Shown piece after piece: positions 26,401 through 63,699 of a DNA stretch of 64,000 bases. The stretch covers positions 3,756,001 through 3,820,000 of the forward strand of contig NC_092665.1 of the NCBI RefSeq assembly GCF_032118995.1, read 5' to 3'. How positions within the stretch are numbered: the stretch's first letter is position 1; each line of letters starts with the position of its first letter. Below the pieces are notes generated by a model that searched no databases, was not told where the DNA came from, and saw only the letters and a list, made by a program, of their open reading frames with translations. A program made the position numbers and the translations under genes. The stretch is from Asterias amurensis. Taxonomy: Eukaryota; Echinodermata; Asteroidea; Forcipulatida; Asteriidae.

Positions 26401-29400
26401 GAGAACGCTAAACTCCTAATTTCATTTCATTTATTCTGGTTGCGAAGCCAAGAACTCTCGGAAAAGCAAACTTAATCACTGTACTGGCCAAGAACCCCAT
26501 GGAGAGAAGACAAAGAAGGATGTTGCAGTTCTAGATGTGGGAGGAAAACCTCAGAGAAATATTCCAAGGGAAAAAACAGACAGTCAGGTAGAGACTGAAT
26601 TGAAAACCCAATCCACGAAGTGCCCCCAGTGGGATTCGAACCGAGGTCCTAGAGGTGGAAGGCGAGGAAAGACATCACTACGCTAACACAACCACCCCAA
26701 CCACCCTATTATTCAAGATTGATTTTTCTTTTTCAACAGATGTTTTTGACATCTGCTCTGGAGGTGATGTTTACAACGAACTCCTTGAGCATCGGCAGAA
26801 GGTTCAGCATCTCAGCGAAGACACAGCGATAGCACTCAAGAAAAATGTCTACAGGAACTATACGCAGTTCATTGAGACGGCGAAAGAAATATCATGTATC
26901 CTTTTATAGAAACAAGTAGGAAGTGTTTTGACTTTGCTCCTTCAAGAGTGAAGTTCAATACCTGTTATTCCTTTGTATGTTGCATTGCATGGCAAATTTC
27001 TCTTGGGTTACTTGTGTTTTCTATTAGGACACTTAACTATAATTGCTGGACTCCACCAGGGGTGAATGGGTACCTGTGAGGGCAGAGATAGTTCTTGTGT
27101 TTGATTTAGCTTCGTATGGCATACTTGTTGCACAAGCTACACATGTATATACTCCCTAGGGAACTGAGATGGTTTTAAGAAATGAATACAATGGCCCAGT
27201 GACTAGGGGTAATAATTTTAGAAGAGCTTTGAGACACCCTTCGAGTGTGCAAAGCGCAATATAAAAACCTATTATTATTCTTCTTCCTGAACTCCTTTAT
27301 GGATCAGATCTGGAAGGAGAGATGTATCAACTGAGCCATGTTCTAACAGAACAGAAATCCATCATGAGCCAAATGCTTGAAATGTCCATTGGAAAGAAAG
27401 GTAAGTTTCTTAATGATTTATAAACAGATCAAATTAAATAAGGAAAGCAGTCTGGTAAAATTTAAAATAATTTTGGGTTGAACAAAGAGAATAGACCGAT
27501 CCAGTAGGCTCCGCCCACGTCGACGTGTTAGCATGAACATGTGGGGCTCTCCAATGCCTTTTGCACAACTCTGCGGCGCGCGTCAAGCAGATGGGCACGC
27601 ATGTCGGACCTTAGTGTCGGACCTTCGTTGTGTTGTGGTTGGTCAATACGCAATGGGGCGGGGCTTAATGGATCGATCTATTGACTAGAGCTTGACTTGA
27701 ATATGTGTCCTCTGGCACGCTAACTATTTTTTTCTTTCTTTGAAAAGCACTGTATAAACAGTGCTTATGGCCTAACATCACATACTAGTGTATGGCAGAA
27801 AACCAAAATAATATTATTTATCCCTTGTGAACTTATTACATCTATTAAACAATGAGTTTTATTGATTATGACTTCTCGATTATTGTGTTATTTTCTCGAT
27901 TCTTCTGTTATTTCCCAGAAGCTTCAGTAAGAAATAAAGACTTGCCGCAGAACAAAGATGATCAGAAGAGAACAATAGCCTCACTCCTGGATCGAGTAGA
28001 AGGATGCTCGGTCAGTATTTAAAAGAACTCCTAATCTATTAACTTTTGAATGTGGATTAGGTTAAAATAAAGACAAATAGTCTGGCACCTTTCCAGCGCT
28101 GATGCATTTCTAACTGTATTTACCTGTCTGTTTTTTTGCAGAGGATAACCGAGGTACCAGGTCGATACATTGTCCATGATGGCGACCTAGTGGAGTTAGA
28201 CACGGATACGTTCTCTGAGGTTCAACGAGTTCATGCTTACCTGCTCAACGATAGCTTAGTTATTACAACATTCGTTCCAAACAGGTAGAATAAACTTCAG
28301 GCTTTGAAATAACCCACAGCATTTGCTGTGGTGCCCTCTGCTTTTATTGTGGTGCCCTCTGCAAGGTTCCAATACAAATTTACATTTTTTCTCAAAAAGG
28401 TACCCCTTACCAGAGTTAAATTACTATGTAATTTATTTTTTACTGATTTGGGGGAAAGACAAATTTGCGAACCTCCGCCTCTACCAACTGTTTCAAGTTT
28501 ACACTCCGTTAAGGAATCTTTGATCAAGTTCCATGCTTCTCCTCATTGAACCCAAGTCTCGACACTCATGGGGTGAAAGGTCTTTTTCTTCAGCTGCGCC
28601 ACGCATCTTGAACTCTCTACCACTTAATCTTAGATCTTGTCTTTGTACCACAAAATTTAAATCTCTTCTCAAAACTTATCTTATGTCACAGGTTTTCAAC
28701 AATTAATTTTGTTGTGTTTGTTTTTCTTTGTTTTTGTTTTTTGGTTTACTGCGCCTTGAACACCCAGCAGGGTGGATACGTGCGCATTACAAGTCTTATT
28801 ATTACTATTGATCTATTAAGCCCAATTTTGGTGGTCTCCCTATTGGTCAATGTCTTTGTTTAAAGAGCCAGTAAGAAGTCATGCAATGAGATTTTGAACA
28901 ATTGTTTTGCAGACGGGGACCAGTGAGGTACAAGTACCAGGCATTATATGAGCTGGACAGCCTTGCTGTTGTTAACGTCCGAGATGTTGGTCGTAAGTCA
29001 CTTTTTGGAATTTCCATCATAACATAATCGATTAAAGCAACAACAACTACCCTTAGAATACGCCTTTGAATGTCTCAAATTTTGTTTGTGATTTGCAAAG
29101 TATAAACATTTTAAAAAAATTATGATTGAAGTAATTCACAGAGTTTTCGTAGTCTTCATGAAGAGTAAAACTGATCGACAGAAATCATGTATAATAAAGA
29201 TATATAATAGTGTGTGGTATCTTGTATTTATAACTTGTTTTTCTTTTTGACTCCATAGCTGTGAAAAATGCTTTCAAGATACTGATGTTTCCTGATCAGA
29301 GGATTTACAGAGCGGACAACTCAAAAACAAAGGTACAGGGAGTGAAAAGAGGATCGCTGGTTTATGAAAATAATAATACTGAGTTCTTATATTGATAATG

Positions 29401-32400
29401 CTTTATCTTTGAGCAGGCCTCAAAATAGCCCACGGCACCGACAGCAATACACCGATCCATTAGGCTCCGCCCACGGCACACTCTGCTGCGCGCACCCCAA
29501 GCACATGCGCACACATGTTGGACTTTATAGTGTCAGACTTTTGACTGTGCAATGGGTTGTGATTCGTCAATACCCAATGGGGCGGAGCTTAAAGGAACAC
29601 GTTGCCTTGGATCGGTCGAGTTGGTCTTTGAAAAGCGTTTGTAACCGTTTTTTATAAAATGCATATGGGTAGAAAGATGTTGTAAAAGTAGAATACAATG
29701 ATCCACACAAACATGCCTCGAAATTGCGTGGTTTTCCTTTTACCTCGTCGACTAACACGTCAGCCATTTATGGGGGTCAAAATTTTGACTCCCATAAATG
29801 GCCGACCATGTTAGTTCGAACAGTAGAAGGAAAACCATGCAAACTTGTGTGGATCATTGTATTCTACTTTTAAAACATCATTCCAACCATATGCATTTTA
29901 TAAAAAACGGTTACAAACGCTTTTGTTTTGACCAACTCGTCCGATCCAAGGCAACGTGTTCCTTTAATGGATCGGGTGATTGCTGTGGTGCTTTGCTTTT
30001 GCTGTGGTGCCCTTTGTAAAGTTCCAACACAAATTTACATTTCCTCATAGAAGTTTCTCTTACCAGAGAAAAAATTGCAAAGCATGTAAGAGCATCTTAA
30101 AGCGGTTGTTATTTTATTGACTGGTAAGCAAAGTTTGATAAGTAGGAGACTCATTTAATATAGCATAAGGTAGGACTTTTATGCCATGCAAAATCTACAT
30201 TGAATCCCTGAGGTGATGTATGGACATTCTTGTCATTGTTTTGAATTTTATTTTCAGCGAACATGGCTGGATAAACTCGAAGAGGCGAAGAAGACTAAAG
30301 CAGCTGCCGATACTCACAGGAGGGAGTTGGCTGAGCAGATGAGCGTTGAGTCCACTGATTATAATCGTGAGTATTGAGTAACGAGTAACGAGTATTCAGG
30401 CCTTGGACTTCAAGACAGTTGCTATGACACTTGATTAGGGGCAGGCTTTTTGTGAGTTACGTAAGAGTTGTTGAACACCCATACACAGTTCTGAATGGAT
30501 GTGTATGGCACAGTGGTACTAGGGTTTGCTCATCTGTAGGTTGCTATACAAAGGTTTGCCTCAAACCATTTGACATAGCAACAACAACAAAATAATATTT
30601 TGCGGAAATATTTTGCTATATTTTTGGGCAAAATAGCTAGGGTAAGGAAAACAGAATCTTAATGTTTTGGGTTATTTCTAAGTTGTATTATTTCATTTAT
30701 TTGTATTACTTAGAAAAGACAATTTATAAAATTTTGCTTTCAAATTGTGTTTCCTTATACAAATTATTCAAAACCTGACTTCCCAAGATGACATTATAAG
30801 CTGCATAGAAAATTATAACATTTCTTTTTTTGTTGAGTTCTTTATAAATTGTATTGAGAGCTTGGATATTTGCGATCGTATTTTCAGATAAGCCAGATAT
30901 ATATGGATTCTTACAGAGTGAAGGTATATCTTGGTGTGATTTAGCATGACTGCCTGCAACTTTTATTCATTTGAAAATCTCCAGAATGTATCTACCATGA
31001 TTGTTTCTTTACGTGATATGAATGTACCAAGCCTTGCAGATAGAACTTGAAGTAATTGTGTCAAACTGCATGCAAAAGGATCTTTTTTCTTAGATGTTTG
31101 GTTAGAAATTACAAAGAAATATTACTACCAGAAGTTACCCAAACCGCATCCCATAGTGTTGCCTGTTATAGTTTTACCCTTATGAAAACAGGGCTGTGAC
31201 ATCCGGGCCCAATTTCAACGAGCTGCTTTTAAAGCAGAAAATATTGCTTAACATTTGTTTCTGCTAAGCACAACTATGCAAGATACCAGTTACATTCTGC
31301 ACACGTAAAATGGTTATTTAGCTTGTAACCTTATTCTGGTTAGCATAATTTTGTTGTGCTTAGCAACTTGTTATGCTTAAGCAGCTCTATGAAATTGGGC
31401 CCTGCTCTGGCTTAGGGTTTTGATCTGCCATTTGAAGCCTTGTATCAAATGTGCATGTCTTCTGAGTGAGCCTAAGCCAGAGCCGCTGAATCAGCCACTG
31501 TGGCTGTTGCTAAGGGTGTTGCCATGGGCCTCCTATGCCTCAATGCATGTTGTCATGACGATCAAGCCACAGCCGCTTTTTCAGACATAGCCTTAGGCTG
31601 TGTCCGAAACGGCGACTTCGACTACAGCTACGGCTAGATCAGCGCATCTGCCTGTGTTGAAGAATAGGCAGATGCCCTGATCTAGCCATAGCTGTAGCCG
31701 AAGTCGCTGTTTCGGACACCGCCGTAGACTCAATTGAGCCCTATCTTGCATCCACCATTTTGTCTTGTTACCCATGTGCAAGAGCAATGGTCGATACTGA
31801 TTCCTGTTATACCAAATGGTCTCTGACTATTTTGTTTGTTTTGTATGGTTGACAGCGTTTGATGAAGATGATGATGTGATGTCACCCACGATGCCAGTGG
31901 AATCGTCCAGTATGCTCAAAGTGGATTGGCTGATAGAACTACCTGAAGACCTAGACATGTGTATCGCCCAGAGGAACTTTGAAGAAGCTACTGATCTCAT
32001 CATCAAAAGTAACTAAATACCGCCCTCTTGGGATCAATATAGAATTGCATTCACTTTGCACACGCATCAAACAAGATTTCATTACCTTGCCAAACAACTC
32101 GAGACAGGAAACTTTTGCAATTGAAAAGTCTCTTAAATGTTGTTATAATGAAGAGTTACTAACCACTGTTTTTTCTTTAAGATCCAACATTACTCAAAAG
32201 AGATATCCACATGGTTTTACTACAAATCTCTCCTAGATATTCTCTCTACCATGCAAAGTTTCAAAACCTGCTTATAAAGAGTACACAGAAAGAGTACTAA
32301 AAAACAGGTGGAAAGTGTTTTCCTGTCAGATTAAGGTACAAAGAAGGATGGTGTCGATGATACGTACAAATCAGGCAATAAATCCTCTAGAAATACTGGA

Positions 32401-35400: not shown

Positions 35401-38400
35401 AGAGCAAGGCCATTTCAGGCCTTATGCTTTGTTTTTTCACCCTACTACTGGAGCATTTCAAGGGCAACAAGGCACCCACCTTCATTGCCGCTGTGAGGTA
35501 CCAGGCCTGCCCATTGTATACCGAAAGGGCACTTCCATTTGTTTGAAGGGCACCACGGTCAAGAAAAGGGCAACGAAGGCTATGGCCTCCTTGGCCTGTT
35601 TGTATTCCCTGGCCTGAAATTGTGGTGTGATGGTTTTATGTTGTCATTTTTTCGTGATCAATTGGAAACAAAAATTCATCATTTATCATTGGAGTTCCCT
35701 AGTGGATAGTGTTTTAGGTGCTGTATACCTCACTGGTTTTGAGCTTGTAAGCCCAGAGGTGGATTTCACAAAGAGATAGGACTAGTCTTATCTTGAGTTA
35801 GGACCAGTTACTCTTCCTAACTTAGGACTATCCATGCAATTTGTATATCTCCTAGGACTAGTCCTAAGTTAGGACTAGTCCTAACTCTTTGTGAAATCGA
35901 CCCCAGCTCCACTCAGTCTCCCTGCAAATAATAATAATAATAGGGGCTTCTTATATAGCACTCATAGCGACCATTGATGCGTTTAGTTCTTCTGTAAGGT
36001 ACTGTGGAAATTGAAGTATGAGACCAATTCTTTTACATAGCTACATGTGATGGTTACAAGGTGCTCTGTCGCAATATGCAGCCAGTTAAAGGATGTTTAC
36101 ATTCTCAAAGAAACAGTTTAAATTGACCTTTTCATTTTCGTTTTTCAATATCATAGTGTCGGTTTCTACTCCTCTCTTAGATTGAACTCGGCTGTACAGA
36201 GTATTGTTTAGAATTTTAGAAGTCTCATGAGGTTCTCCTTGTTGTTTGTTTTCTTTAAAGGATGAACGATGGTACCCACTGAATCTGAAGAATCCCACCG
36301 CAGCTAATAACCTCATCCAAGAAATGTTCCAACTTGGCTTTGAAGATTTCAACACTCTGGTTTATGGTACGTCATCTTATCGGACTTTTACCCATTGAGT
36401 CATTCTTATAATCATTGCTGCGATATTAGTGTACATGAAGGATTGGGGTATGTGGTGAATTAGTGACATCATTTCTACAAGATACCTAGTGGCTCCCTGC
36501 TTAAGCCCACATTCATACAGCTGCCTAATATATTGCTTAATTTTTGTCTGCTAAACAGAAATAAGCAGGATACAAAGGACACAAAAGATGCAATACCAAA
36601 CATACTTTGTTTTGCATGATTGATCATTGTTGATTATTTATATAGTTATCGATTTGATTAAATGTATTTTTTTTCTTCTTACAGACAGTTGCTTTGTAAG
36701 TCTTTCCAGCAGTAATGTTGCTTTTACCAAGGTGCTTCTGTCATTTCTACTCGATGCACTCAAGCTTTATGTTCCAGAGGTAAGTCTTCAATGAAACTCC
36801 CTGATTACACAAAACTGGGGGTACTTTGACTGGGTAACAGGTGCCTGATCATACCTAGCAATATCCAGCACCCTCTTATCTACAGTTGTACCCAGATGTA
36901 ACACGGGCCACTGATGATACAATGAGCGTGTTGTATTAGGGTGAAGGGGATGGCATACCCAAACTGGGTGACTCGGACTGGGTAACTAGGTGCCTGATCA
37001 TACCCAGCAATATCCAGCACTGTCTTATCTTCAGTTGTACCCAGATGTAACATGGGCCACTGATGATACAATGGGCGTGTTGTATTAGGGTGAAGGGGAT
37101 AGCATACCCAAACTGGGTGACTCAGACTGGGTAACTAGGTGCCTGATCATACCCAGCAATATCCAGCACTGTCTTATCTATGGTTGTTCCCAGATGTAAC
37201 ATGGGCCACCGATGATACAATGGGCGTGTTGTATTAGGGTGAAGGGGATGGCATACCCAAACTGGGTGACTCGGACTGGGTAACTAGGTGCCTGATCATA
37301 CCCAGCAATATCCAGCACTGTCTTATCTACAGTTGTTCCCAGATGTAACATGGGCCACCGATGATACAATGGGCGTGTTGTATTAGGGTGAAGGGGATGG
37401 CATACCCAAACTGGGTGACTCGGACTGGGTAACAGGTGCCTGATCATACCTAGCAATAGCCAGCACCCTCTTACCTACAGTTGTTCCCAGATGTAACATG
37501 GGCCACCGATGATACAATGGCCGTGTTGTAATAGGGTGAAGGGGATGGCATACCCAAACTGGGTGACTCGGACTGGGTAACTAGGTGCCTGATCATACCC
37601 AGCAATATCCAGCACTGTCTTATCTTCAGTTGTACCCAGATGTAACATGGGCCACTGATGATACAATGGGCGTGTTGTATTAGGGTGAAGGGGATGGCAT
37701 ACCCAAACTGGGCATACTTGGACTGGGTAACTAGGTGCCGATCATACCAAGCAATAGACCTTATGCATTGACGTCATCCAGCCGCCATCTTTGAGGTCAA
37801 ACGGTGACGAAACAATCGAAACGCACATAGATTGGCCAATGATCAACCTCCTTTTGACCTCAATGCGGGGGCGCCGTACTGAAATGACGTCATGTGCATA
37901 AGGTCTATAGCCAACACCATCTTGTCTACAGTTGTACCCAGATCTAATATTGACCCTTGAGGATGCAATGGGAGTTTTGTACTAGGGTGGGGTGGTATAC
38001 CCAAACTGGGCGTACTTAGACTGGGTTTCTATTTGCCTGATCATACCCCACACCCAGATCTAAGATGGACCATTGAGAATGCAATGGGAGTGTTGTACTA
38101 GGGTACTATATACCCAAACTGGGCGTATTTAGACTGGGTAAGTGGGTGCCTGATCATACCCAATACCCTCTTGTCTACAGTTGTACCCAGATCTAATCTG
38201 GATCACTGGGGATGCAATGGGAGTGTTGTATTAAAGTATACTCAAACTGGGCGTAGTTTGATTGTGTAACTAGGTGCCTGCCTGATCATACCTAACACCC
38301 TCTTATCTACAGTTGTACCCATATCTAACATGGACCATTGAGAATGTACTAGGGTATTACATGTACATGTATATACCCAAACTGGGCGTACTTAAACTGG

Positions 38401-39397
38401 GTAACTAGGTGCCTGATCATACCCAATACCCTCTTTATTTCAACAGTTGTACCCAGATCTAATCTGGACCATCAAGGATGTAATGGAGAGTCATGTTCAC
38501 CTAATGGAGACGGCAGTCATGTCGGACAGGTTTGCCGACGAGCGACCATTCATCATGAAGAATATTGACTACCTGTTCACTGTCCTGCTTCCTCATGTTG
38601 AGAAAAAGATCAAGGTAAAAATAAACCCCTCAAGTAAACTTGTTCTTGTGATACGACATCTACTCTAGCAATGAAAAGGTTGTGTGTTAGAATCCCACCC
38701 GAGTGATTTGATAGTACTGAGTGTACTGTGCTACAAAATTTCCATCTATTCAACTGGTTCTGATTTCTTTCCAGTCTGTGTCAAATGTTTTGTCAATACT
38801 TTCCAAAATGCGTACATCTTTTCTGTTATTATTAGGTTTGGTTAAAGATACTTTATTAATGTATTGCATTAATCATTTTAAATGTGAAATTTACAAACTG
38901 TCAGTAATAAATATATTAAGTTAATCAGTAGGGAAAACTGATCTGTAATTTTCTCAAACTGTTTTTCTTCAACTCAAAAATATTAAACTCTCTTCAAGAA
39001 ACAGCCGTCGATTTCACAAAGAGTTTGGACTCGTCTTATCTCGAGTTAGGACGAGTAACTCCTAGTCCTAACTTAGGATTAATCTTAAGGTCTGCATGCT
39101 ACAGTGCAGGGTTGGGACTTGTCCTAAGTCCTAAGATTAGTCTTAAGTTAGGAAGAGTTTTTTGAAATCGACGGCAGTCTTCCTAAAGTTGAAACCTATC
39201 AAGAATGTAGTGATTATGCACTATTTCAAATAAGCAAATGTATTTCTTTAGCTGATCAATTTGTACTTTTATAAATTTTTAATCTTTGGAATCCTTTACA
39301 GTGTGTTGCAGATCGGAGCCTGAAAGAATTGAAGGACTTCCGCAATCGCCACCGACAAATCGCCCGAAAGGTTCAAAATCTTGGTGCACTAATATAA
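23455..39397 (+). CDS. EXOC8: exocyst complex component 8 (Exo84)
   Basis: Seventeen exons: 23455-23509, 26740-26895, 27308-27400, 27919-28010, 28142-28284, 28913-28992, 29259-29332, 30258-30366, 31856-32008, 32554-32605, 33054-33198, 34269-34449, 34815-35065, 36261-36366, 36685-36779, 38447-38614, 39302-39397. Phases agree; 682 aa (human ~725). Order of parts: amino coiled coil, residues ~20-130 (NVYRNYTQFIETAKEIS, EGEMYQLSHVLTEQKS), the exocyst CorEx region; PH domain ~133-245 (GRYIVHDGDLVELD, FKILMFPDQRIY), which in mammals binds RalA and phosphoinositides; acidic linker NPFDEDDD; then the helical Exo84 carboxyl part (LPEDLDMCIAQRNFEEA, LRGGPQVTRRAVTELIRLG, IRQL-like RQLRIEGAT, SAFVVWSKAEL). 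Exo84 helps tether secretory vesicles to the plasma membrane. Exon 16 begins at the end of a tandem array made from its own start. A 36-nt optional exon may lie at 30888-30923. Confidence 0.93.
23943..25480. repeat. pair of ~250-bp direct repeats, 1.28 kb apart, EXOC8 intron 1
   Basis: The block starting AAATAGTGACTTTCAAATAC recurs from 25219. It runs through GTGAGACCCACTCTTCTC and the GTGTGTGTCTGTCT tract to AGTTACATACATACCC, with few differences. The interval has no coding content and no transposon ends. It is most simply a recent segmental tandem duplication followed by divergence or insertion between. Confidence 0.6.
26263..26463. repeat. two-copy tandem repeat of ~103 bp
   Basis: GATTTAACTTGCATTTAA(A/C)AGCAGACCC occurs at 26268 and again at about 26368, each followed by CTCCTAATTTC and TTTATTCTGGTTG. 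It includes the 3' edge of the adjoining SINE (GAAGCCAAGAACTCTCGG). Confidence 0.6.
26430..26695 (-). repeat. SINE family 2, antisense copy
   Basis: Reverse complement of the element at 14038-14295: the same TAGATGTGGGAGGAAAACC, GAAAACCCAATCCACG and tRNA-like GGGATTCGAACCGAGGTCCT in inverse order. It ends 45 bp before EXOC8 exon 2. Confidence 0.6.
27055..27275 (+). repeat. SINE family 1, 5'-truncated
   Basis: Matches the 3' half of the copy at 4619-4946: GAATGGGTACCTGTGAGGGC, TATACTCCCTAGGGAACTGA, GGCCCAGTGACTAGGG, then CAAAGCGCAATATAAAAACC and ATTATTATT. It lies just upstream of EXOC8 exon 3. Confidence 0.65.
27492..27691. mobile_element. MITE family M9, intact copy
   Basis: ATAGACCGATCCAGTAGGCT on the left mirrors GGCTTAATGGATCGATCTAT on the right, with CTCCGCCC/GGGCGGGG inside; ~200 bp. 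It provides the unoccupied version of the insertion site seen in the second copy at 29446. Confidence 0.7.
28480..28805 (+). mobile_element. 3' fragment of a CR1/L2-type LINE
   Basis: Reads VYTPLRNL, a stop, then SSSMLLLIEPKSRHSWGERS and FSSAAPRILNSLPLNLRSC, ending TKFKSLLKTYLMSQVFNN and a stop. This is the usual carboxyl end of the reverse transcriptase ORF of CR1/L2-like non-LTR elements. The 3' tail follows: GCGCCTTGAACACCCAGCAG ... TTATTATTACTATT. At least one internal stop is present, so the copy is dead. A bare tail of the same family is at 50504-50570. It lies in EXOC8 intron 5. Confidence 0.7.
29446..29976. mobile_element. MITE family M9, interrupted by a nested M3 element
   Basis: Left part 29446-29592 (ACACCGATCCATTAGGCTCC ... 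GGGGCGGAGC then TTAA). The short right end, TGGATCGG, resumes at 29968. The M3 fold-back occupies 29593-29963. Compare the intact copy at 27492-27691. Confidence 0.8.
29593..29963. mobile_element. fold-back MITE family M3, copy 2
   Basis: AGGAACACGTTGCCTTGGAT on the left, CCAAGGCAACGTGTTCCT on the right; 371 bp, flanked by TTAA at 29589-29592 and 29964-29967. The arms are inverted copies of each other except near the centre. Confidence 0.85.
30888..30923 (+). other. EXOC8: possible 36-nt cassette exon of EXOC8
   Basis: TATTTTCAG precedes and GTATAT follows a 36-base stretch that reads through in phase 1 between EXOC8 exons 8 and 9 and would insert 12 residues (HKPDIYGFLQSE) into the linker. 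Skipping gives NPFDEDDD, as in the human NPFEDDEEEE, so skipping looks like the main form. No expression evidence is available. Confidence 0.35.
31205..31402. mobile_element. MITE family M2, intact copy
   Basis: GGGCCCAATTTCAACGAGCT on the left mirrors AGCTCTATGAAATTGGGCCC on the right; GCTTAAGCA-type words and TTTCTGCTAAGCACAA repeat inside. Located in EXOC8 intron 8. Confidence 0.7.
31596..31724. mobile_element. 129-bp hairpin MITE family M5, copy 1
   Basis: GGCTGTGTCCGAAACGGCGA on the left and the inverse TCGCTGTTTCGGACACCGCC on the right, with TA on both sides. The whole element folds into one stem with the loop near TGTTGAAGAATAGG. The copy at 47324-47452 has the same length. TA flanks fit a Tc1/mariner-type origin. 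A loosely related piece (CTGGCTTAGG ... GCCTAAGCCAG) lies just upstream at 31410-31570 and another at 41195-41340. Confidence 0.75.
33513..33825 (-). repeat. tRNA-derived SINE, family 3
   Basis: On the minus strand: GTGGCATGGTTGGCGTGTGC, then B-box-like GGTTCGATTCCCGGACGGGG, then a body with GAGGGTTTTCCAGACCATCC and GGTTTTCCTCCCTCGG. It lies in EXOC8 intron 11. Confidence 0.65.
35090..35600. repeat. minisatellite of ~65-90 bp units in EXOC8 intron 13
   Basis: CATTTCAGGCCTTATGCTT recurs at about 35109, 35191, 35275, 35342 and 35411, alternating with GAGCATTTCAAGGGCA. It starts 25 bp after the exon 13 donor. The unit contains GGCACCAAGGCAAGGCC, also scattered singly at 62585-62750 and near 14530. 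Long frames here are products of the repeat. Confidence 0.7.
35757..35907. mobile_element. palindromic MITE family M4, copy 2
   Basis: GGTGGATTTCACAAAGAG ... CTCTTTGTGAAATCGACC with the TTAGGAC/GTCCTAA interior, as at 13890-14037. Confidence 0.7.
36829..38446 (+). repeat. tandem array built from the start of EXOC8 exon 16 and its acceptor
   Basis: About ten units, ~149 bp each on the left and 118-152 bp on the right, fill intron 15. Each carries an intron piece (GTGCCTGATCATACC ... CTCTTATCTACAG) and then sequence matching the first ~40 bp of exon 16 (TTGTACCCAGAT...). Exon-start equivalents lie at 36886, 37035, 37184, 37333, 37481, 37630, 37932, 38181 and 38313, with a truncated one near 38050; the real exon starts at 38447. 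In most units the AG is kept; at 37184 it is GG. Units next to the real exon resemble it most (TTGTACCCAGATCTAATCTGG at 38181), while the left units are near-identical to each other. Confidence 0.9.
37757..37906. mobile_element. MITE family M7 inside the exon-derived array
   Basis: GACCTTATGCATTGACGTCA on the left mirrors TGACGTCATGTGCATAAGGTC on the right, with TA flanks. It separates the homogeneous left half of the array from the diverged right half. Confidence 0.7.
39003..39175. mobile_element. palindromic MITE family M4, copy 3
   Basis: GTCGATTTCACAAAGAG ... TTTTTTGAAATCGACGG with the same inner words, in EXOC8's last intron. More diverged than the other two copies. Confidence 0.6.
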
Positions 39398-41974: not shown

Positions 41975-44350
41975 CTAAAAGTCAGGACCAGTCTTGCTTT
42001 CAAGTGGCAGGGCAGTCGGTACCTTCAACTCAAAGTCAGGACCAGTCTTGTTTTCAAGTGGCAGGGCAGTCGGTACCTTCAACTCAAAGTCGGGACCAGT
42101 CTTGCTTTCAAGTGGCAGGGCAGTCGGTACCTTCAACTCAAAGTCAGGACCAGTCTTGCTTTCAAGTGGCAGGGCAGTCGGTACCTTCAACTCAAAGTCG
42201 GGACCAGTCTTGCTTTCAAGTGGCAGGGCAGTCGGTACCTTCAACTCAAAGTCAGGACCAGTCTTGCTTTCAAGTGGCAGGGCAGTCGGTACCTTCAACT
42301 CAAAGTCGGGACCAGTCTTGCTTTCAAGTGGCAGGGCAGTCGGTACCTTCAACTCAAAGTCGGGACCAGTCTTGCTTTCAAGTGGCAGGGCAGTCGGTAC
42401 CTTCAACTCAAAGTCAGGACCAGTCTTGCTTTCAAGTGGCAGGGCAGTCGGTACCTTCAACTCAAAGTCGGGACCAGTCTTGCTTTCAAGTGGCAGGGCA
42501 GTCGGTACCTTCAACTCAAAGTCAGGACCAGTCTTGCTTTCAAGTGGCAGGGCAGTCGGTACCTTCAACTCAAAGTCAGGACCAGTCTTGCTTTCAAGTG
42601 GCAGGGCAGTCGGTACCTTCAACTCAAAGTCAGGACCAGTCTTGCTTTCAAGAGGCAGTGCAGTCGGTACCTTCAACTCAAAGTCAGGACCAGTCTTGCT
42701 TTCAAGTGGCAGGGCAGTCGGTACCTTCAACTCAAAGTCAGGACCAGTCTTGCTTTCCAGAGGCAGTGCCGTCGGTACCTTCAACTCAAAGTCAGGACCA
42801 GTCTTGCTTTCCAGAGGCAGTGCCGTCGGTACCTTCAACTCAAAGTCAGGACCAGTCTTGCTTTCCAGAGGCAGTGCCGTCGGTACCTTCAACTCAAAGT
42901 CAGGACCAGTCTTGCTTTCAAGTGGCAGGGCAGTCGGTACCTTCAACTCAAAGTCAGGACCAGTCTTGCTTTCAAGAGGCAGGGCAGTCGGTACCTTCAA
43001 CTCAAAGTCAGGACCAGTCTTGCTTTCCAGAGGCAGTGCAGTCGGTACCTTCAACTCAAAGACAGGACCAGTCTTGCTTTCAAGTGGCAGGGCAGTCGGT
43101 ACCTTCAACTCAAAGTCAGGACCAGTCTTGCTTTCAAGTGGCAGGGCAGTCGGTACCTTCAACTCAAAGTCAGGACCAGTCTTGCTTTCAAGTGGCAGGG
43201 CAGTCGGTACCTTCAACTCAAAGTCAGGACCAGTCTTGCTTTCCAGAGGCAGTGCCGTCGGTACCTTCAACTCAAAGTCAGGACCAGTCTTGCTTTCAAG
43301 TGGCAGGGCAGTCGGTACCTTCAACTCAAAGTCGGGACCAGTCTTGCTTTCAAGTGGCAGGGCAGTCGGTACCTTCAACTCAAAGTCGGGACCAGTCTTG
43401 CTTTCAAGTGGCAGGGCAGTCGGTACCTTCAACTCAAAGTCAGGACCAGTCTTGTTTTCAAGTGGCAGGGCAGTCGGTACCTTCAACTCAAAGTCGGGAC
43501 CAGTCTTGCTTTCAAGTGGCAGGGCAGTCGGTACCTTCAACTCAAAGTCAGGACCAGTCTTGCTTTCAAGTGGCAGGGCAGTCGGTACCTTCAACTCAAA
43601 GTCGGGACCAGTCTTGCTTTCAAGTGGCAGGGCAGTCGGTACCTTCAACTCAAAGTCAGGACCAGTCTTGCTTTCAAGTGGCAGGGCAGTCGGTACCTTC
43701 AACTCAAAGTCGGGACCAGTCTTGCTTTCAAGTGGCAGGGCAGTCGGTACCTTCAACTCAAAGTCAGGACCAGTCTTGCTTTCAAGTGGCAGGGCAGTCG
43801 GTACCTTCAACTCAAAGTCAGGACCAGTCTTGCTTTCAAGTGGCAGGGCAGTCGGTACCTTCAACTCAAAGTCAGGACCAGTCTTGCTTTCAAGAGGCAG
43901 TGCAGTCGGTACCTTCAACTCAAAGTCAGGACCAGTCTTGCTTTCAAGTGGCAGGGCAGTCGGTACCTTCAACTCAAAGTCAGGACCAGTCTTGCTTTCC
44001 AGAGGCAGTGCCGTCGGTACCTTCAACTCAAAGTCAGGACCAGTCTTGCTTTCAAGTGGCAGGGCAGTCGGTACCTTCAACTCAAAGTCGGGACCAGTCT
44101 TGCTTTCAAGTGGCAGGGCAGTCGGTACCTTCAACTCAAAGTCGGGACCAGTCTTGCTTTCAAGTGGCAGGGCAGTCGGTACCTTCAACTCAAAGTCAGG
44201 ACCAGTCTTGCTTTCCAGAGGCAGAGCAGTTGGTACCTTCAACTCAAAGTCAGGACCAGTCTTGCTTTCCAGAGGCAGGGCAGTCGGTACCTTCAACTCA
44301 AAGTCAGGACCAGTCTTGCTTTCAAGAGGCAGTGCAGTCGGTACCGCCAA
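41975..44350. repeat. 54-bp tandem array (coding for the repeat protein)
   Basis: 44 units of 54 bp. Variable sites fall into a few types: CAGGACC or CGGGACC; AAGTGGCAGGGCAG, AAGAGGCAGTGCAG or CAGAGGCAGTGCCG. The rare TTGTTTTC variant occurs at 42047 and 43451, 26 units apart, and the order of unit types after each is alike, which shows that a block of 8-11 units was copied. As 54 is a multiple of three and the unit lacks stops in several frames, long frames appear on both strands. Confidence 0.95.
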
Positions 44351-45005
44351 CAGCCCCTTAATATTAATCTGTCGGACATAAAACAAATTACAATACAATG
44401 TATTTGTAATTGGTTGAAATGGTTGAGCAATATTGTTGGTGTTTAGGAAACAATAGTTTGGGATTGGAAATAGTATTGTAAAGACAGATTGATAGTGAAG
44501 AATGGTTATTGCATTACTACTTTTAGTTGTTTTTTGTTAGACATCTCGACAGAATTCTTTAATTAACGTGGACAAAACAAGTTAATTAAATACAATAATC
44601 ATACATTGGAATCTGAATGAATTATCGCGGATAACACAAAAATGCTACAATTGTTTTAATTTCCATTGTGGTCCTCATAGTCATTGTTGTAAGTATTGCA
44701 GTTAATCTCTATTTAGTCACCATACTTTTCCCCTTCTATTTTAATTACACAAGTATTTGGATATAATTTTCTGAACTTTGCATTTTCTTCAAACTAAAGA
44801 GGAAAAAAGTACTAAAACAAACTGTTCAGGATGAATAGTGTAATCAACTCAATTTAATCAAAAACACCTAGAAATTGATTTACCATACGGAATAAATCAC
44901 GATTTTAGGCTTTCAAAATAACTTTTAGAAAGCTATAAAACTTACCGGCTTGGCAGAAGCCAATCCAAGTAGTACAGTTATCATCAGTGTAAACCGAAAC
45001 ATCAT
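41975..45005 (-). CDS. secreted tandem-repeat protein, 44 units of 18 aa (novel)
   Basis: Two exons on the minus strand: 45005-44946 and 44368-41975, 817 aa. Exon 1 codes MMFRFTLMITVLLGLASA-KP, a textbook signal peptide with a hydrophobic core and an A-x-A cleavage site, then a consensus donor (CCG then GTAAGT). The 577-bp intron ends TTTGTTTTATGTCCGACAG; phase 0 is kept. Exon 2 codes INIKGLLA, then 43 full and one 15-residue copy of VPTALPLESKTGPDFELK, then TAG. I see only three residue changes among the 44 units (Ser to Asn twice, Asp to Val once), while most nucleotide differences are silent in this frame. The mature protein is ~85 kDa, Pro/Leu/Glu/Lys rich, slightly acidic, without Cys, Trp or Tyr, and with no dibasic sites, so not an obvious neuropeptide precursor. 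I recognise no family. A structural, adhesive, mucous or coelomic protein is possible; the function is unknown. Confidence 0.75.
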
Positions 45006-45157
45006 TCTTGCTAAGCAATTCTCTCCCAAAACTTAAAAATTAAAAATCGGTTTTTACGCCGAGCTGGCTTTCCCAAGAACCTAATGGATGTGTCAAAGTT
45101 GGTAAATTTCACATCCAAGTAGAATGACCAATTATAAAATGTATGATAGTCTGTTCT

Positions 45158-47452: not shown

Positions 47453-48080
47453 TAACTTCCGATTAACTCCTGTGATTGGCCATTGCGTACACACCTCTTT
47501 CACACCCCTTAATTATTGAAACACTTGCAACCAATCATACTCAGTCATTTTTCATTATTTTCATTGCAAAGGCTATTCACTTTGTTTATTTTAAGCGGCT
47601 TTCATGAAGAAGAGGGTTTTATGTGTAAGTGTAAGTGTAAAAATTGCAAGCTAAACAAGTATTTTACTTCATATTTTGTGGAAGTTATTTCCCGTGTGTA
47701 GTGCGCCCTCTATCATAATTCTTTAACATAAAATATCAATTGGTGCAAGATATGTGAACAGATTTCCTATGGTACATGTACGAGTAGGATTCTACTCTAC
47801 TCTACTCACTACATAACTGGTACTCTTCACGTCGCTGTGTTAAACCAATGCAAAAATAACTGAGTACCAGCATACAGCATACACCATACATAATGTACAT
47901 TACATGTACATACACACTGCATGCTCTCGTCCGTCCGTCGTCGTCCACAGCTAGTTTTGACGCGGATTTGGTGATTTATGATGCCGATCCGAAACATTGA
48001 TGGACATCTTTTCTCGGTAAGAAGTTGATTTTGTGCACGGTGGTCTTAACTGGTCACTCTCAAATTGTTAAATGATCAAC

Positions 48081-48389
48081 GTCAATTATTTTATATCAGA
48101 TACTTAATTAAGAATAATCAATAAGACTTCCATTAAACATTATTATCAAATAACATGTTCATCCTACTCCTAAATCCTAGCCCGTCAATTATTTTATATC
48201 AGATACTTAATTAAGAATAATCAATAAGACTTCCATTAAACATTATTATCAAATAACATGTTCATCCTACTCCTAAATCCTAGCCCGTCAATTATTTTAT
48301 ATCAGATACTTAATTAAGAATAATCAATAAGACTTCCATTAAACATTATTATCAAATAACATGTTCATCCTACTCCTAAATCCTAGCCC
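48081..48389. repeat. three near-identical tandem copies of a 103-bp unit
   Basis: GTCAATTATTTTATATCAGA starts at 48081, 48184 and 48287, each copy ending CTAAATCCTAGCCC. I see almost no differences among the copies, so the expansion is recent. No coding frame of note. Confidence 0.9.
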
Positions 48390-52936: not shown

Positions 52937-54430
52937 ATTCTGGCCCTATGGTTTAGCATTGAGTAGGATTCTGGCCCTATGCTTTAGCATTGAGTAGGAT
53001 TCTGGCCCTATGCTTTAGCATTGAGTAGGATTCTGGCCCTATGCTTTAGCACTGTGTAGGATTCTGGCCCTATGCTTAACCATTGAGTAGGATTCTGTCC
53101 CTATGCTTTAGCATTGAGTAGGATTCTGGCCCTATGCTTTAGCATTGAGTAGGATTCTGTCCCTATGCTTAAGCATTGAGTAGGATTCTGTCCCTATGCT
53201 TTAGCATTGAGTAGGATTCTGGCCCTATGCTTTAGCATTGAGTAGGATTCTGGCCCTATGCTTCAGCATTGAGTAGGATTCTGGCCCTATGCTTTAGCAC
53301 TGTGTAGGATTCTGTCCCTATGCTTAAGCATTGAGTAGGATTCTGGCCCTATGCTTTAGCATTGAGTAGGATTCTGGCCCTATGCTTTAGCATTGAGTAG
53401 GATTCTGGCCCTATGCTTTAGCATTGAGTAGGATTCTGTCCCTATGCTTAAGCATTGAGTAGGATTCTGTCCCTATGCATTAGCATTGAGTAGGATTCTG
53501 GCCCTATGCTTTAGCATTGAGTAGGATTCTGGCCCTATGCTTTAGCATTGAGTAGGATTCTGTCCCTATGCTTAAGCATTGAGTAGGATTCTGTCCCTAT
53601 GCATTAGCATTGAGTAGGATTCTGTCCCTATGCTTAAGCATTGAGTAGGATTCTGTCCCTATGCTTTAGCATTGAGTAGGATTCTGGCCCTATGCTTTAG
53701 CATTGAGTAGGATTCTGGCCCTATGCTTCAGCATTGAGTAGGATTCTGGCCCTATGCTTTAGCATTGAGTAGGATTCTGGCCCTATGCTTTAGCATTGAG
53801 TAGGATTCTGGCCCTATGCTTCAGCATTGAGTAGGATTCTGGCCCTATGCTTTAGCATTGAGTAGGATTCTGGCCCTATGCTTTAGCATTGAGTAGGATT
53901 CTGTCCCTATGCTTAAGCATTGAGTAGGATTCTGTCCCTATGCATTAGCATTGAGTAGGATTCTGTCCCTATGCTTAAGCATTGAGTAGGATTCTGTCCC
54001 TATGCTTTAGCATTGAGTAGGATTCTGGCCCTATGCTTTAGCATTGAGTAGGATTCTGGCCCTATGCTTCAGCATTGAGTAGGATTCTGGCCCTATGCTT
54101 TAGCACTGTGTAGGATTCTGGCCCTATGCTTAAGCATTGAGTAGGATTCTGTCCCTATGCTTTAGCACTGTGTAGGATTCTGTCCCTATGCTTTAGCATT
54201 GAGTAGGATTCTGGCCCTATGCTTTAGCATTGAGTAGGATTCTGGCCCTATGCTTTAGCACTGTGTAGGATTCTGGCCCTATGCTTAAGCATTGAGTAGG
54301 ATTCTGTCCCTATGCTTCAGCACTGTGTAGGATTCTTCCCCTATGTTTCAGCATTGTGTAGGATTCTTCCCCTATGCTTTAGCACTGTGTAGATTCTGGC
54401 CCTATTGCTTTAACATTGTGTAGCATTCTC
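52937..54430. repeat. 31-bp minisatellite, about 48 units
   Basis: Unit ATTCTGGCCCTATGCTTTAG + CATTGAGTAGG. Variants: GGCCC or GTCCC; CTTTAGC, CTTAAGC, CTTCAGC or CATTAGC; ATTGAG or ACTGTG. Longer runs of variants recur in the same order, so blocks of units were copied. As 31 is not a multiple of three, no long frame exists and it is not coding. It ends ~430 bp before the ALDH4A1 ATG. Confidence 0.95.
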
Positions 54431-54861: not shown

Positions 54862-57800
54862 ATGCTGACGACGAAGATTTTGCTCCGGAGAGCCTATCAA
54901 GGGTAGGTTGACATTTATCTTAGTTATTATTGAGCTGTCCGCACTCTCCAAAAAAGTGAAGGACATTTAAATTGAGTTAAATTGTGCATTACAGTTTTTT
55001 TTTACATGATTACACTTGATAATGGTAATAATTACTCATAATTATAGTACGACCCGCCGTCCCTGGCTGGAAGTGGAACATTCGATCAAGCTCAAGTTCA
55101 ACCATGTGATGTACATGTATGTCCAACACTTCACCCACGCTACTTACGACCATGCGTGTCGAGTACACACTAGCACTGCAGCATGTACAGTGACTGGGAA
55201 AGTCAAAGAGGCCTAGTGAGCTAGCTAGTTGGCGGAAGTCAACTCTCTCTCATGAGTCATGCACCACTGCACTGCACTGACTGACGTCCTGGGGATGATC
55301 TGATGGGTGTAAATTTATTTTAAAAATCTCGGGGCGACTCGCTGGTCTAACTAAGATGAATCCTTTCATAAAATTTGAAACACCAGTGAGGAAATAATTG
55401 AAGGGATAACATTTCGTACGACGCCACCACTTTTTCACTCATTTTTACAAAAAGGGATATCTCATTGAGGTAAATTAGATACTATGGGTCTATATTATTT
55501 CATATCGAATGAAAAAGTGGTGGCGCCATACGGAAACTTTTCCAATTGAAGAATAGGGACAAAAACTTACCAGAGCCCGGAGCAAAATGAACACAAATGT
55601 TTTTGTTTTCATTTCAGTTTGTTTGATTTTTGTTTCCACAGTGTCCGATGTTTGTCATTTAAAGCTCAGAATGAGCCTATCTACCAGTATGCCAAGGGCT
55701 CTCCAGAACGTGAGAGAACTGAAGAGGTAAATAAAATATAAATACATTCTTGTGTGGTTTGAGTCCAAATATTGGTTTGGACTTGTCATGAATTGAAGAT
55801 TTAGTGGGCGCCAGTCGGTTCTTAATTTGGACACTACAGCCATCACTTGGGTGTAATGAGGTTTTCAAGACAAGATAAGCTGAATTTGGGTATTGTTGGG
55901 CTTGAAATAATAACAAGCATTTATATAGCGCCAAGGACCTTTACAGATTAAAAGAAGTAAAACAAGCAGCCAATAAACAAACAAAAATATACAAAACATC
56001 TGTAACTAAGCATAAACAGGAATTCCATGAACCCCTAAAAAAGCCACAACAAAACCCTATGAAACTACAAAAATAAAAATAAGAAGAACCGTTAAAGTAA
56101 AACACTTGACCCTTGAGCACGCATACCGCCAGGAGCCGCCCTTCATATCAGCCCAGATGTCGCCCCACGCACCCATGCAATTTGACATGGTGTACTTTGA
56201 GTTATAAATATGCGAGTAAAACGCAAACAACAGCCTTAGATAGTGCACGATCTCAAGATGACAACAGTCTAAAAATAGCACATGGTCCACATGAGAAAAA
56301 ATGACACATTTTTGAAAACTGTGAACTGAAAATCATTTAAAAGATAAGTTCATCCTCTACAAAATATACACACCGAAAGTTATCTAATGACTTCGGGATA
56401 CTGCTGGAAATCGATTGAATTCTCATGGCGCAGTTAGGAGTGTATGGCACTATGTTTAATACTGTGTGCGTGCTAAAGGGTTACATAATGTAGAAATACC
56501 CACTGGGTGACTGCAAACCCCTGTAGGGACCAATTTTGGGGTACTGCCAACTAGACCAGTTGGACCTGAAGCATGTTGCCACGCCCTGAAATAACAATCA
56601 TCCTAATGCTGCCCTACATGTATTATTTACAATTTATTTCAGGCATTGAACAGACTTGGAAGCACTGTGTTGGAGGTTCCATGTGTCATTGGTGGAGAAC
56701 AAATATTCACCGATGACGTTCGTTCTGAAGTTTCTGTAAGTATGAAGATGAAATACCAAAAGTTAAAACCAGACACTGTGCACAACTAATCATTTTATGA
56801 AATTAATTTGTATGGCTTGATAAATTCATCGCTTATCAGCATTATAAAGTCCACGTCTGTGTTGTATTCTGATCACCCCTAGACAAGCAGTCTAGCCGGA
56901 ACGATAGTCAATGGAGTTTAACCTCAGATTTCATGCTGAGCTAATGCATTTGAAACAATCTTTCTGCCATGATAATGACATAGTTATGAAAATTAGTCTA
57001 ATGAGTGCAAAGGCCACTCCACCTGTGGTTTCTGCATGTATGCATTTCTAGGCTATTTAGTAACACTCAAAATAAAATTGGAAGAATGTCATGACCTAAA
57101 AGATAGTAGTAGCATTTAATCTGACCTTAAACTGTCCAATAAATGTACTAAATATTGTTCATATATATATGTACCAAAAAACTAAACTTTTTCACATTTC
57201 TAGGGTTAAAGGAACATTACAGAATTGGTTTTTTGCTAACAAAACAGTTGCTGGCAGTGTAAGCACTTTATGTTATCCACCATTATACATAAACTGACAA
57301 ACCTGTAAAAGTTTGAGAGAATAGTGAAGAACCGATTACAAATTTTGCATTGCATCGATGCCAAAATAAAAATGAATAAAACGCTCACTGAGCGATAAAC
57401 TCCAAACGCAAAGTTAGATTATTTATTTCTCAACAAATATAACATTTCAGACAGAAATATTTCAAGGGATGTTTTCAACTATCATCATCATTAGACCATG
57501 TAAGTTTTATGTAAATCTGTGATCTTCACGTTTTTTGTTTCGTACCAATTCTGTAACGTTCCTTTAAATATGCTGTTAAGATATTTGACTTGAACTTATT
57601 TGTCTTTTACATAGTGTCTAATCTGTTATTTTGTCAACACCATTTTTTATTTCCAATCACGAATGGAATTTTCTAATTTGATGTTGTTTATCTTTTATAG
57701 CCTTATGACCACCAGCATAAATTGGCGTCAGTGCATTATGGAAACAAGGTAAATAATACTCACGTCCTTCTAAAAAGTAAAGCTCTGGCATTGGCTCTGA

Positions 57801-60800
57801 CTTAGGCTTGGCTTGGGTTCTGACTTTGGCTCTGGCTAAGGCTCTGGCTAAGTCTCTTGCTAAGTCTCTGGTTTAGGCTCAGGCTTACGCCCCAACTTAG
57901 GCTCCGGCTTAGGCTCCAGCTTGGGCTCTGGCTTAGGCTCAGGCTGAGGCTGTGACTTAGGCTCTGGCTTAGGTACTGGCTTAGGCTCCAGCTTGGGCTC
58001 TTGCTAAGGCTCAGGCTGAGGCCCTGACTTAGGCTCCAGCTTAGGCTCTGGCTTAGGCTCCAGCTTGGGCTCTTGCTAAGGCTCTGGCTTAGGCTCTGCT
58101 AGTAATTTTGAAAACTTACACATTCTGTAAATTGCAAGCAGAGTCTCTGCCATGCTGAGCAGAAGCAGTGGGTTTGAAAAGTGTGTTTATTTTGTGTGTT
58201 TTTTTTAATGTCCAAGTGCAAATTTGTATTTCCGTCATAGATGTGCACTTTACTAAAACAAATACTGCCTTGCCCTTTCAGATGTCTAAGGCATGCAAGC
58301 TTAGTCAAGCACAGTATTAATCTCTGCCTACACCACTCCTGGCTGAAGTGAAGCAATTAATGATTAAATACATGTACATGTACTTCACTAAAAGGACTCT
58401 AGACACAGATACCCTCATAGACAGCGTTGTAGCCACGGTGGGCGGCGGTGGGCGGGCCTGCCCAGCACTGACAATTTCCGCCCGGCACTTCAGCTGAAAA
58501 ATAGACTGCTGCCCACCACAACATTTCCCCCAAAATTAATAAAAAAAATTAAAGTTCTGCTGATATTGATCACGTTGCAAGAATATAATGTCATCTTTGT
58601 TCGTGTTTTGTCATTTTAAATGCAGTTTGTAATTTTTATGAGCCAGAATTTCGAGCAATAAAAACCTCAAACGTGTTTCCCACGCAACTTGCCTCTTGCC
58701 ATCTTGTGAAGTTTTCTTTGTGAAATGTGCCCTGACGTTTTTATTGAACGAACTATAGTATAGTGTAGAAGGCGTACCGTCTATACAGTCTGACAGCAGT
58801 GCTGGTACCGTGCACATGTACACGATGTATGTATGTACATGTGGTGTACACCAGCGCGCGCTGTGGTAGACCCTAGAGTGCACTACAAGTCTAGTCGTGA
58901 GGTTTTTGCGGGGATTTCACGCATTCCATGTACACACAAACAGTATCGCCACACAACAGTACAAGGGGTGTGTAAAGTCTAGTGTACGAGTTCGCGTATC
59001 CCGGATGTAGGCATGTAAACACGTTCGCTTCGTCCACACGTATGTGTGACAGCGCGCTGGGTTTTTAACTTGAATGAGATCTGTGTAAATTTTAAGATGG
59101 CTTCGCAACGTAAGCTGGACGACTTTTTTTGGAAAACGGAAAAGATTGGAAGATGATATAACAGTATTTCGTACAGATTCAGTTAGTGCTGAGAATGAAA
59201 CTGTACCTGAGACTATCGAGACAGTTACTCCACCTTTAAAGTTCAGTTCAACTTCATCGCGGCGGGATTACAACAAGCAAACAGCAGAAACTATTTCACA
59301 AACAGTCTGTTCACAACAAATGCATCACAATTATTTTGTATTAACACATTTTTGTTATAATAATTGTAATTATACTTAAAAATTGTGATTCTTGGATCTT
59401 ACATAATGTGCATTTGGCACGATTGGAATGTTAATATTTAGCCCTGAAAACAATCCTTACAACAGAGTACGTGCGCACTGCTCGCAATCTCTGACCAAGT
59501 TTAAATTCAGCTGCGCCCACCACTAAAAATGTCTTGGCTACATAATAATAATAACAAATTCTTATATAGCGCATTTCACAATAAACCGTATCAATAACCT
59601 TTACATTAGTCACCTGGTCATTGGGCCAATAAACATCCCTTTAATCTTTCTCAGCTCCCATTAGGGAGTATACAGCCCCGAGCTGCCGTGGCGCTCCAAA
59701 AGCTTTTCATTGACAATATCAACCTCTACCCTCGCAGGTACCCATTTATACCCCTGGGTGAAGAGAAGCAATTATAGTAAAGTATCTTGCTCAAGGACAC
59801 AAGTGTCACGACCGGGATTCGAACCCACACTCCGGTGAATTAGCACCAGAACTTGAATTTGATGCTCTGTAACCACTCGGCCGTGACACTCTACAACACT
59901 GCTCATAGACACCACTGTTGTTTGAAGGGAAGCAATTAATGGTTAAATACCTCACTGAAGGACACTAACCTGCGAAATGTTCTCTGAGTGAAATACCAAG
60001 CTACAGGGATTTATCTAAAAATTAATCAAATCAAACTAATTTTTTTCTTTTTAAATTTTGTAGGTATATTTTCCTAAATTTTGACCCTTGGTTGCCATGA
60101 ATTAATGAATGAATGAATGGTTCTCTTCCCTGATTTAGGAGCTTATCAATAAGGCCATAAATTCAGCTCTCTCAGTCAGGAAAGAATGGGAAGCCAGGCC
60201 TCTCGAAGACCGCGTCCAAATCTTCCTCAAAGCAGCTGATCTTATCTCCAATAAATACAGAGCAGATCTTGTCGCTGCTGTTATGCTGGGTCAGGTAAGT
60301 CATCCCAAGATTTAAAAAAAATAAAATATTTCATGATTCCACTCAAGACCCTTGAAACTCTTTTTTTTCCATTATTATCTCGCAACTTTGACGACCAATT
60401 GGGGTCAAATTTCCACAGGTTTGTTATTTTATGCATATGTTGAGATACACCAAGTGGGAAGACTGGTCTTTGACAATTACCAAAGGTGTCCAGTGTCTTC
60501 AAACCATCTCAGCTCCTCCGGAGTATACAGACTGAGCTGCCAAATATGTATCGCACTAAGCTAAATCAATCACAAGAACCATTTCTGCCCTGGACTCGTA
60601 CCCATTTACTCCTGGGAGAAGTGAAGCTATTATAGTTAAGTGTCTTGTTAGTGGACACAAGTGTCAACAACTGGGATTACGTGATGACTTAGCCACCAGA
60701 AGTTGAGTCTGGTGTACCATACAGTTCGGCCATGACACGCTAAAATTTAGTTTTCAAGCAGTGTTTGTTTGTTTGCTTGTTTTTCACCAGGCGAAGACAG

Positions 60801-63621: not shown

Positions 63622-63699
63622 GTAAGTTTTTGCTTCAATCCAAAATAAGTTGATGGCGTTTGATTGTATTGGTTACAGAATCACATTATATCACTGCGT

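Follow-up and report, generated by a model that had tools for sequence, protein, structure and literature searches.

A 54-bp tandem array in the sea star Asterias amurensis that may encode a secreted protein of 18-residue repeats

Can a minisatellite form the body of a gene, and, if so, what kind of protein would it specify? The question is raised by a tandem array in the genome of the sea star Asterias amurensis. It lies in a 64,000-nucleotide stretch of DNA, which we call the window and to which all coordinates below refer. Tandem Repeats Finder places the array at 41978-44345 (period 54, 43.9 copies, 96% matches, 0% indels). A first-pass annotation, made from the sequence alone, had read it on the minus strand as the large exon of a real, strongly lineage-specific gene for an undescribed secreted protein. 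Here we consider the gene model, the variation between the units, the predicted product and its possible relatives.

In the predicted minus-strand gene, exon 45005-44946 is joined in phase to exon 44368-41975, and the product is 817 residues long (Table 1). The elements named by the first-pass annotation are all in place. The signal-peptide exon, which translates as MMFRFTLMITVLLGLASAKP, ends at a consensus donor (CCG/GTAAGTT, the slash marking the splice junction); the acceptor CCGACAG/, with its last base at 44369, is in phase and keeps the joined frame open to a TAG stop at 41977-41975; and a TATA box lies upstream on the same strand. Transcription would be expected to start about 30 bp downstream of this box. 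The frame of exon 2 is open up to 44536 and has no Met before the array, so that an upstream start exon is needed. The 44 repeats counted earlier correspond to a 54-bp array that does end in a stop, made of 43 full units and a partial one of 15 residues. Judging by these signals, the transcript is predicted to be spliced and the product to be secreted. No AATAAA was found within 780 bp downstream of the TAG stop, and a search for paralogues elsewhere in the window had no convincing result, with best E-values of 0.41 when exon 1 was the query and 0.18 when the unit was. The predicted 5' leader also contains a minimal start-stop upstream ORF (ATGTGA, 45109-45114, minus strand).

Table 1. Features of the predicted repeat-protein gene, in window coordinates
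Feature	Position	Strand	Remarks
TATA box, TATATAAA	45165..45172	minus	sequence match; likely promoter element
Exon 1: start codon and predicted signal peptide, MMFRFTLMITVLLGLASA/KP	44946..45005	minus	
Predicted intron, GTAAGTT...TGTCCGACAG	44369..44945	minus	577 bp, phase 0
Start of exon 2	44345..44368	minus	eight non-repeat residues, INIKGLLA
43 full 54-bp units, VPTALPLESKTGPDFELK	42023..44344	minus	
Partial 44th unit, VPTALPLESKTGPDF, and TAG stop	41975..42022	minus	

An open frame alone is weak evidence of coding at this locus, because across almost the full array four of the six frames stay open. This openness, a period divisible by 3 and the presence of other minisatellites in the window would all suit a non-coding minisatellite that is open by accident and lies near a chance signal-peptide-like exon. 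The variation between the units bears directly on this alternative. The 43 full units hold nine distinct substitutions and 51 variant sites, and fall into 10 types at the DNA level (11 types when the partial unit is included); 40 of them are identical in protein, two carry S9N and one carries D14V (positions within the unit). In the proposed frame, seven of the nine distinct variants and 48 of the 51 variant sites are synonymous, and between-unit piN/piS is 0.025. The next best frame, plus frame 1 (+f1), has five variants and 27 sites synonymous, and in the remaining four frames only 0-1 of the nine variants are synonymous. When the same substitution types were placed at random, the probability of reaching seven of nine was 0.003 for the proposed frame and 0.007 for any frame, values that come from only nine distinct variants, partly dependent through a block duplication (see below). 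A 12-bp array at 57782-58098, the one array used as a control among those of the window whose period is divisible by 3 (the others being of 24, 12 and 132 bp), has 4-9 of its 23 distinct variants synonymous, depending on the frame, which is near expectation. This control array has a 72-bp higher-order structure, and its minus strand is open as an LSQS-like repeat.

Both strands of the 64 kb were also scanned for signal-peptide exons by crude criteria (an ATG, a hydrophobic core and a GTRAGT donor within 14-35 codons). The scan gave three rows: exon 1 accounts for two of them, as nested starts, and a weak 14-residue stretch at 55612 for the other. The sole good candidate thus precedes exon 2 by 577 bp and matches it in both strand and phase, a coincidence that seems unlikely to arise by chance alone. 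The case for coding is thus made by the synonymous bias together with the only good signal-peptide-plus-donor exon in the scan. The bias is limited to one frame, the very frame that this exon joins in phase, which argues against accidental openness; we regard a non-coding array as improbable, and the earlier claim of a real gene is sustained as a prediction.

A different alternative is that the array does code, on the plus strand, in the frame FNSKSGPVLLSSGRAVGT, which is open at 41979-44381, over 800 codons. Its five synonymous variants are within chance (P 0.11), and the signal-peptide exon sits on the opposite strand. Codon usage, compared with that of the neighbouring KLHL17 gene (615 exon codons), gives this frame a slightly better score, with 5.0 bits per unit for +f1, 4.7 for the proposed frame and 4.5 for +f0; as these values do not separate the frames, codon usage was rejected as a frame test. 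The plus-strand product also gives the more confident structural model: for 12 units of this antisense decoy AlphaFold2 reaches pLDDT 95.6 and pTM 0.88, against mean pLDDT 57.5 and pTM 0.37 for 12 units of the proposed protein, where strands appear in a low-confidence model. According to the account in PMC11795689, AlphaFold2 gave confident solenoids for random perfect repeats in 32 of 78 cases, and the antisense fold is probably an artefact of this kind. Taken together, these observations make plus-strand coding very improbable.

The same comparison led us to reject AlphaFold2 as evidence for a β-solenoid, since the decoy outscored the real unit. Foldseek, run on the low-confidence model, returned 123 matches at E up to 10, none of them at or below 0.001 in PDB (best E 0.14). 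On this modelling, no fold should be claimed for the repeat protein.

The order of the units suggests how the array has grown. Units 7-14 recur as units 30-37, one 8-unit block present twice, and such a match was seen in none of 2000 shuffles. The duplication fits unequal exchange, so that the copy number of the array probably differs between animals.

Signal peptides are cleaved at sites with a small-X-small pattern, and in the predicted protein cleavage would fall after ASA, removing the first 18 residues and leaving a mature chain of 799. The computed mass of this chain is 85 kDa and its pI is 4.7. It uses 13 kinds of residue, with Pro, Thr and Ser together accounting for 32.9%, Leu for 17%, Glu for 11% and Lys for 11%; Cys, Arg, Tyr, Gln and dibasic pairs are all absent. 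Only 28 residues of the predicted protein lie outside the array. N-K-T sequons for N-glycosylation arise in the two S9N units, at residues 325 and 793. Because of the missing residues and dibasic pairs, disulfide bonds, DOPA and Gln-Lys cross-links and the usual convertase processing are all unlikely.

Searches of about 5.8 billion proteins found no relative at E up to 1 with a 352-residue query or at E up to 10 with all 817 residues. These searches scored 7998 and 7993 candidates, those sharing most words with the query, with lengths of approximately 194 to 1430 residues. The same database yields matches to KLHL17 from Asterias, Acanthaster, Lytechinus, Diadema, Amphiura and Anneissia, so that sea star, sea urchin, brittle star and crinoid proteins are all represented in it; no sea cucumber KLHL17 was seen among the 120 matches listed. 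The reach of the search was gauged with synthetic 30-copy relatives. All 15 of those that differ by 1, 2 or 4 residues in each unit share 3-14 five-residue words with the query and score below 1e-200, with the proviso that relatives sharing only 3 or 4 words might drop out of the candidate set, which is capped in size. With 6, 8 and 10 changes per unit, four of five, four of five and five of five, respectively, share no word and cannot become candidates. The unit thus appears to have no close relative in the database, and more diverged ones would be missed; the strong lineage specificity claimed earlier holds for close relatives and goes beyond what the search can say of distant ones.

Other comparisons gave no recognisable kin. 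A Pfam search with the signal peptide plus 13 units gave two families, EIIBC-GUT_C (17.9 of the required 25 bits) and Rho_GDI (10.9 of 26.5 bits), each short of its cut-off and therefore rejected. Six units compared with the sequences of solved structures gave 11 matches at E up to 10, seven of them with E below 0.01. These seven are dnHEM1, dTor_6x35L, TRP variants and a de novo designed tandem repeat protein; dnHEM1 and dTor_6x35L are, we take it, designed proteins as well, and all such matches were set aside as repeat matching repeat. Exact DNA patterns were found neither in prokaryote genomes nor in viral contigs (0 and 0 matches), as expected. Four 8-residue strings of the protein occur in no paper among the 5.39 million searched, and none of the titles listed for starfish, mucus, repeats and adhesives is about this protein, in agreement with its description as undescribed.

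Several known systems resemble the predicted protein in part. To our knowledge, sea stars have no Cuvierian organ. The Cuvierian organ outer-layer proteins (COOLPs) of the sea cucumber Holothuria leucospilota are described in PMC12472103 as having long tandem repeats, no known domain and a predicted all-beta or amyloid-like structure. The sea star protein likewise consists mostly of long tandem repeats (43 full units) with no Pfam domain, a likeness at the level of description; it differs from this holothuriid product in its host, and the strands modelled for it have pLDDT 57.5 only, below the antisense decoy. The tomato frog skin glue protein PRIT, in the account of PMC11237159, is secreted, has segments of 12-24 tandem 18-residue repeats, is proline-rich with 0.5% Cys, and carries predicted O-glycosylation sites. 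It shares the repeat length and the secretion, whereas its repeats are imperfect, contain Pro-Gly motifs and alternate with large IgGFcBD domains; in the sea star protein no domain was found besides the repeats.

The antifreeze glycoprotein (AFGP) genes of codfishes and notothenioids have, as related in PMC8622921, a signal peptide and, after it, a single long tandem repeat; this coding repeat is new in one lineage, and its growth is ascribed to slippage and perhaps unequal exchange. The overall plan is the same here, and a single Lys is also a possible cut site in gadids; AFGPs, however, are built of Thr-Ala/Pro-Ala tripeptides, while the sea star unit VPTALPLESKTGPDFELK is acidic, 18 residues long and has no such pattern. 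Closest in host are the footprint proteins (Sfps) of the sea star Asterias rubens, which occur in footprints and in gland cells of the tube feet and are secreted, as the repeat protein is predicted to be. According to PMC9382459, disordered regions are predicted for Sfp7 and Sfp8, those Sfps that are specific to AC1 are rich in Cys, and EGF, FAMeT, vWF or hyalin domains are present in the Sfps mentioned there, whereas the mature repeat chain has 0 Cys and, by Pfam on the signal peptide plus 13 units, no recognised domain. Since the repeat protein lacks a defining feature of each of COOLP, PRIT, AFGP and Sfp, we file it under none of them; by its sequence, it is best read as an orphan secreted tandem-repeat protein.

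What would such a protein do? The explanation that we favour, with somewhat more confidence than doubt, is a sea star gene of two exons whose product, a repeat protein of 817 residues that is likely secreted, would serve outside the cell as an intact polymer, in a gel, fibre, coat or glue; a structural, adhesive or mucous role is our best guess. Within each unit one may discern an alternating stretch bounded by prolines (D-F-E-L-K-V), a Pro-Leu stretch (TALPLESK) and a turn (TGPD). Repeated many times, the unit would provide multivalent weak contacts, hydrophobic through F, L and V and ionic through E-K salt bridges. With Cys, Tyr and Gln absent, assembly would need to rely on such non-covalent contacts instead of covalent cross-links. 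Unequal crossing-over would set the copy number, and selection would keep the sequence of each unit: amino acid change is nearly absent while third positions diverge, which implies that the unit sequence matters. This constancy would fit a material whose blocks all pack alike.

The same constancy would also fit a precursor of many identical peptides, and this is the main rival to the intact polymer. The chain would then be a polyprotein, cut at single Lys residues, of which there are two per unit, into dozens of copies of TGPDFELK, VPTALPLESK or an 18-mer, with a role as signal, attractant or antimicrobial. Strict identity of the units would suit many copies of one ligand, and for gadid antifreeze glycoprotein precursors cleavage at single Arg or Lys residues is proposed (PMC8622921). 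Against this, the mature chain has no dibasic pair or Arg, so that the usual convertase sites are absent. Convertase-processed precursors have dibasic cleavage sites between their peptide copies. Most antimicrobial peptides are not net acidic, and the peptides expected here are, which tells against that role in particular. We consider cleavage into peptides unlikely.

Another way to read the chain is as a mucin-like glycoprotein, in which the Thr and Ser of each unit would be O-glycosylated and the chain would form a hydrated mucus polymer. T and S stand beside prolines in every unit (VPTALP, ESKTGP), the S9N sequons would add N-glycosylation, and a signal peptide followed by a single large repeat exon, as predicted here, is a mucin-like build. 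Mucin domains, however, have a P+T+S content of roughly 40% or more, and that of the mature chain, rounded to 33%, is under this mark, with Leu, Glu and Lys taking large shares; nor does Pfam report any family at cut-off for the signal peptide with 13 units. To a mucin-like chain we give about as little credence as to the peptide precursor.

The intact polymer also has a more specific, evolutionary version, which we hold only tentatively: a minisatellite open in most frames may have been captured in frame behind a signal-peptide exon, giving rise to a gene of the sea star lineage whose product is an extracellular polymer under unit-by-unit selection. If true, such a capture would be a sea star counterpart of the birth of antifreeze glycoprotein genes, with a structural material as the product, and the locus is well suited to studying how minisatellites that keep the frame may turn into genes. 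If expressed, the protein would add a sea star orphan to the tandem-repeat secreted proteins of echinoderms, and would be an unusually clean block copolymer, made of one 18-residue unit and 13 kinds of residue. Genes of this kind may be missed by annotation.

The remainder of the window contains more conventional genes and further repeats. The gene for KLHL17 (kelch-like protein 17), at 11267-18550 on the minus strand, is 95% identical to its counterpart in Asterias rubens and 85% to that in Acanthaster planci, when compared as a hand-joined gene model. Seven single-exon pieces align with A. rubens at 84-100%, the values falling where a piece extends into an intron, and two kelch exons that the alignment program bridged across an intron gave 55%. 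These identities place the host near A. rubens (Asteriidae), probably as a distinct species. Exon pieces at 7038-8285 (minus) resemble what we take to be a Nudix hydrolase, those at 26604-32013 (plus) presumably an EXOC8-like exocyst subunit, and those at 60139-63645 (plus), in our reading, an ALDH4A1-like aldehyde dehydrogenase; for the last, there is a sub-threshold match to the Pfam family Aldedh. An Rfam tRNA match of 40.1 bits, with no ARAGORN call, lies at 62464-62536 on the minus strand and may represent a tRNA gene or an element derived from one. Among the other repeats, a 31-bp minisatellite at 52937-54429 (48.2 copies) is unlikely to be coding, because its period is not divisible by 3. 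A 149-bp tandem array occupies 36812-37756 (6.3 copies), and further tandem units with periods of 113 and 132 bp are found at 37936-38491. At 48080-48389 a 103-bp unit occurs three times with 100% matches, which may reflect a very recent event or an effect of assembly.
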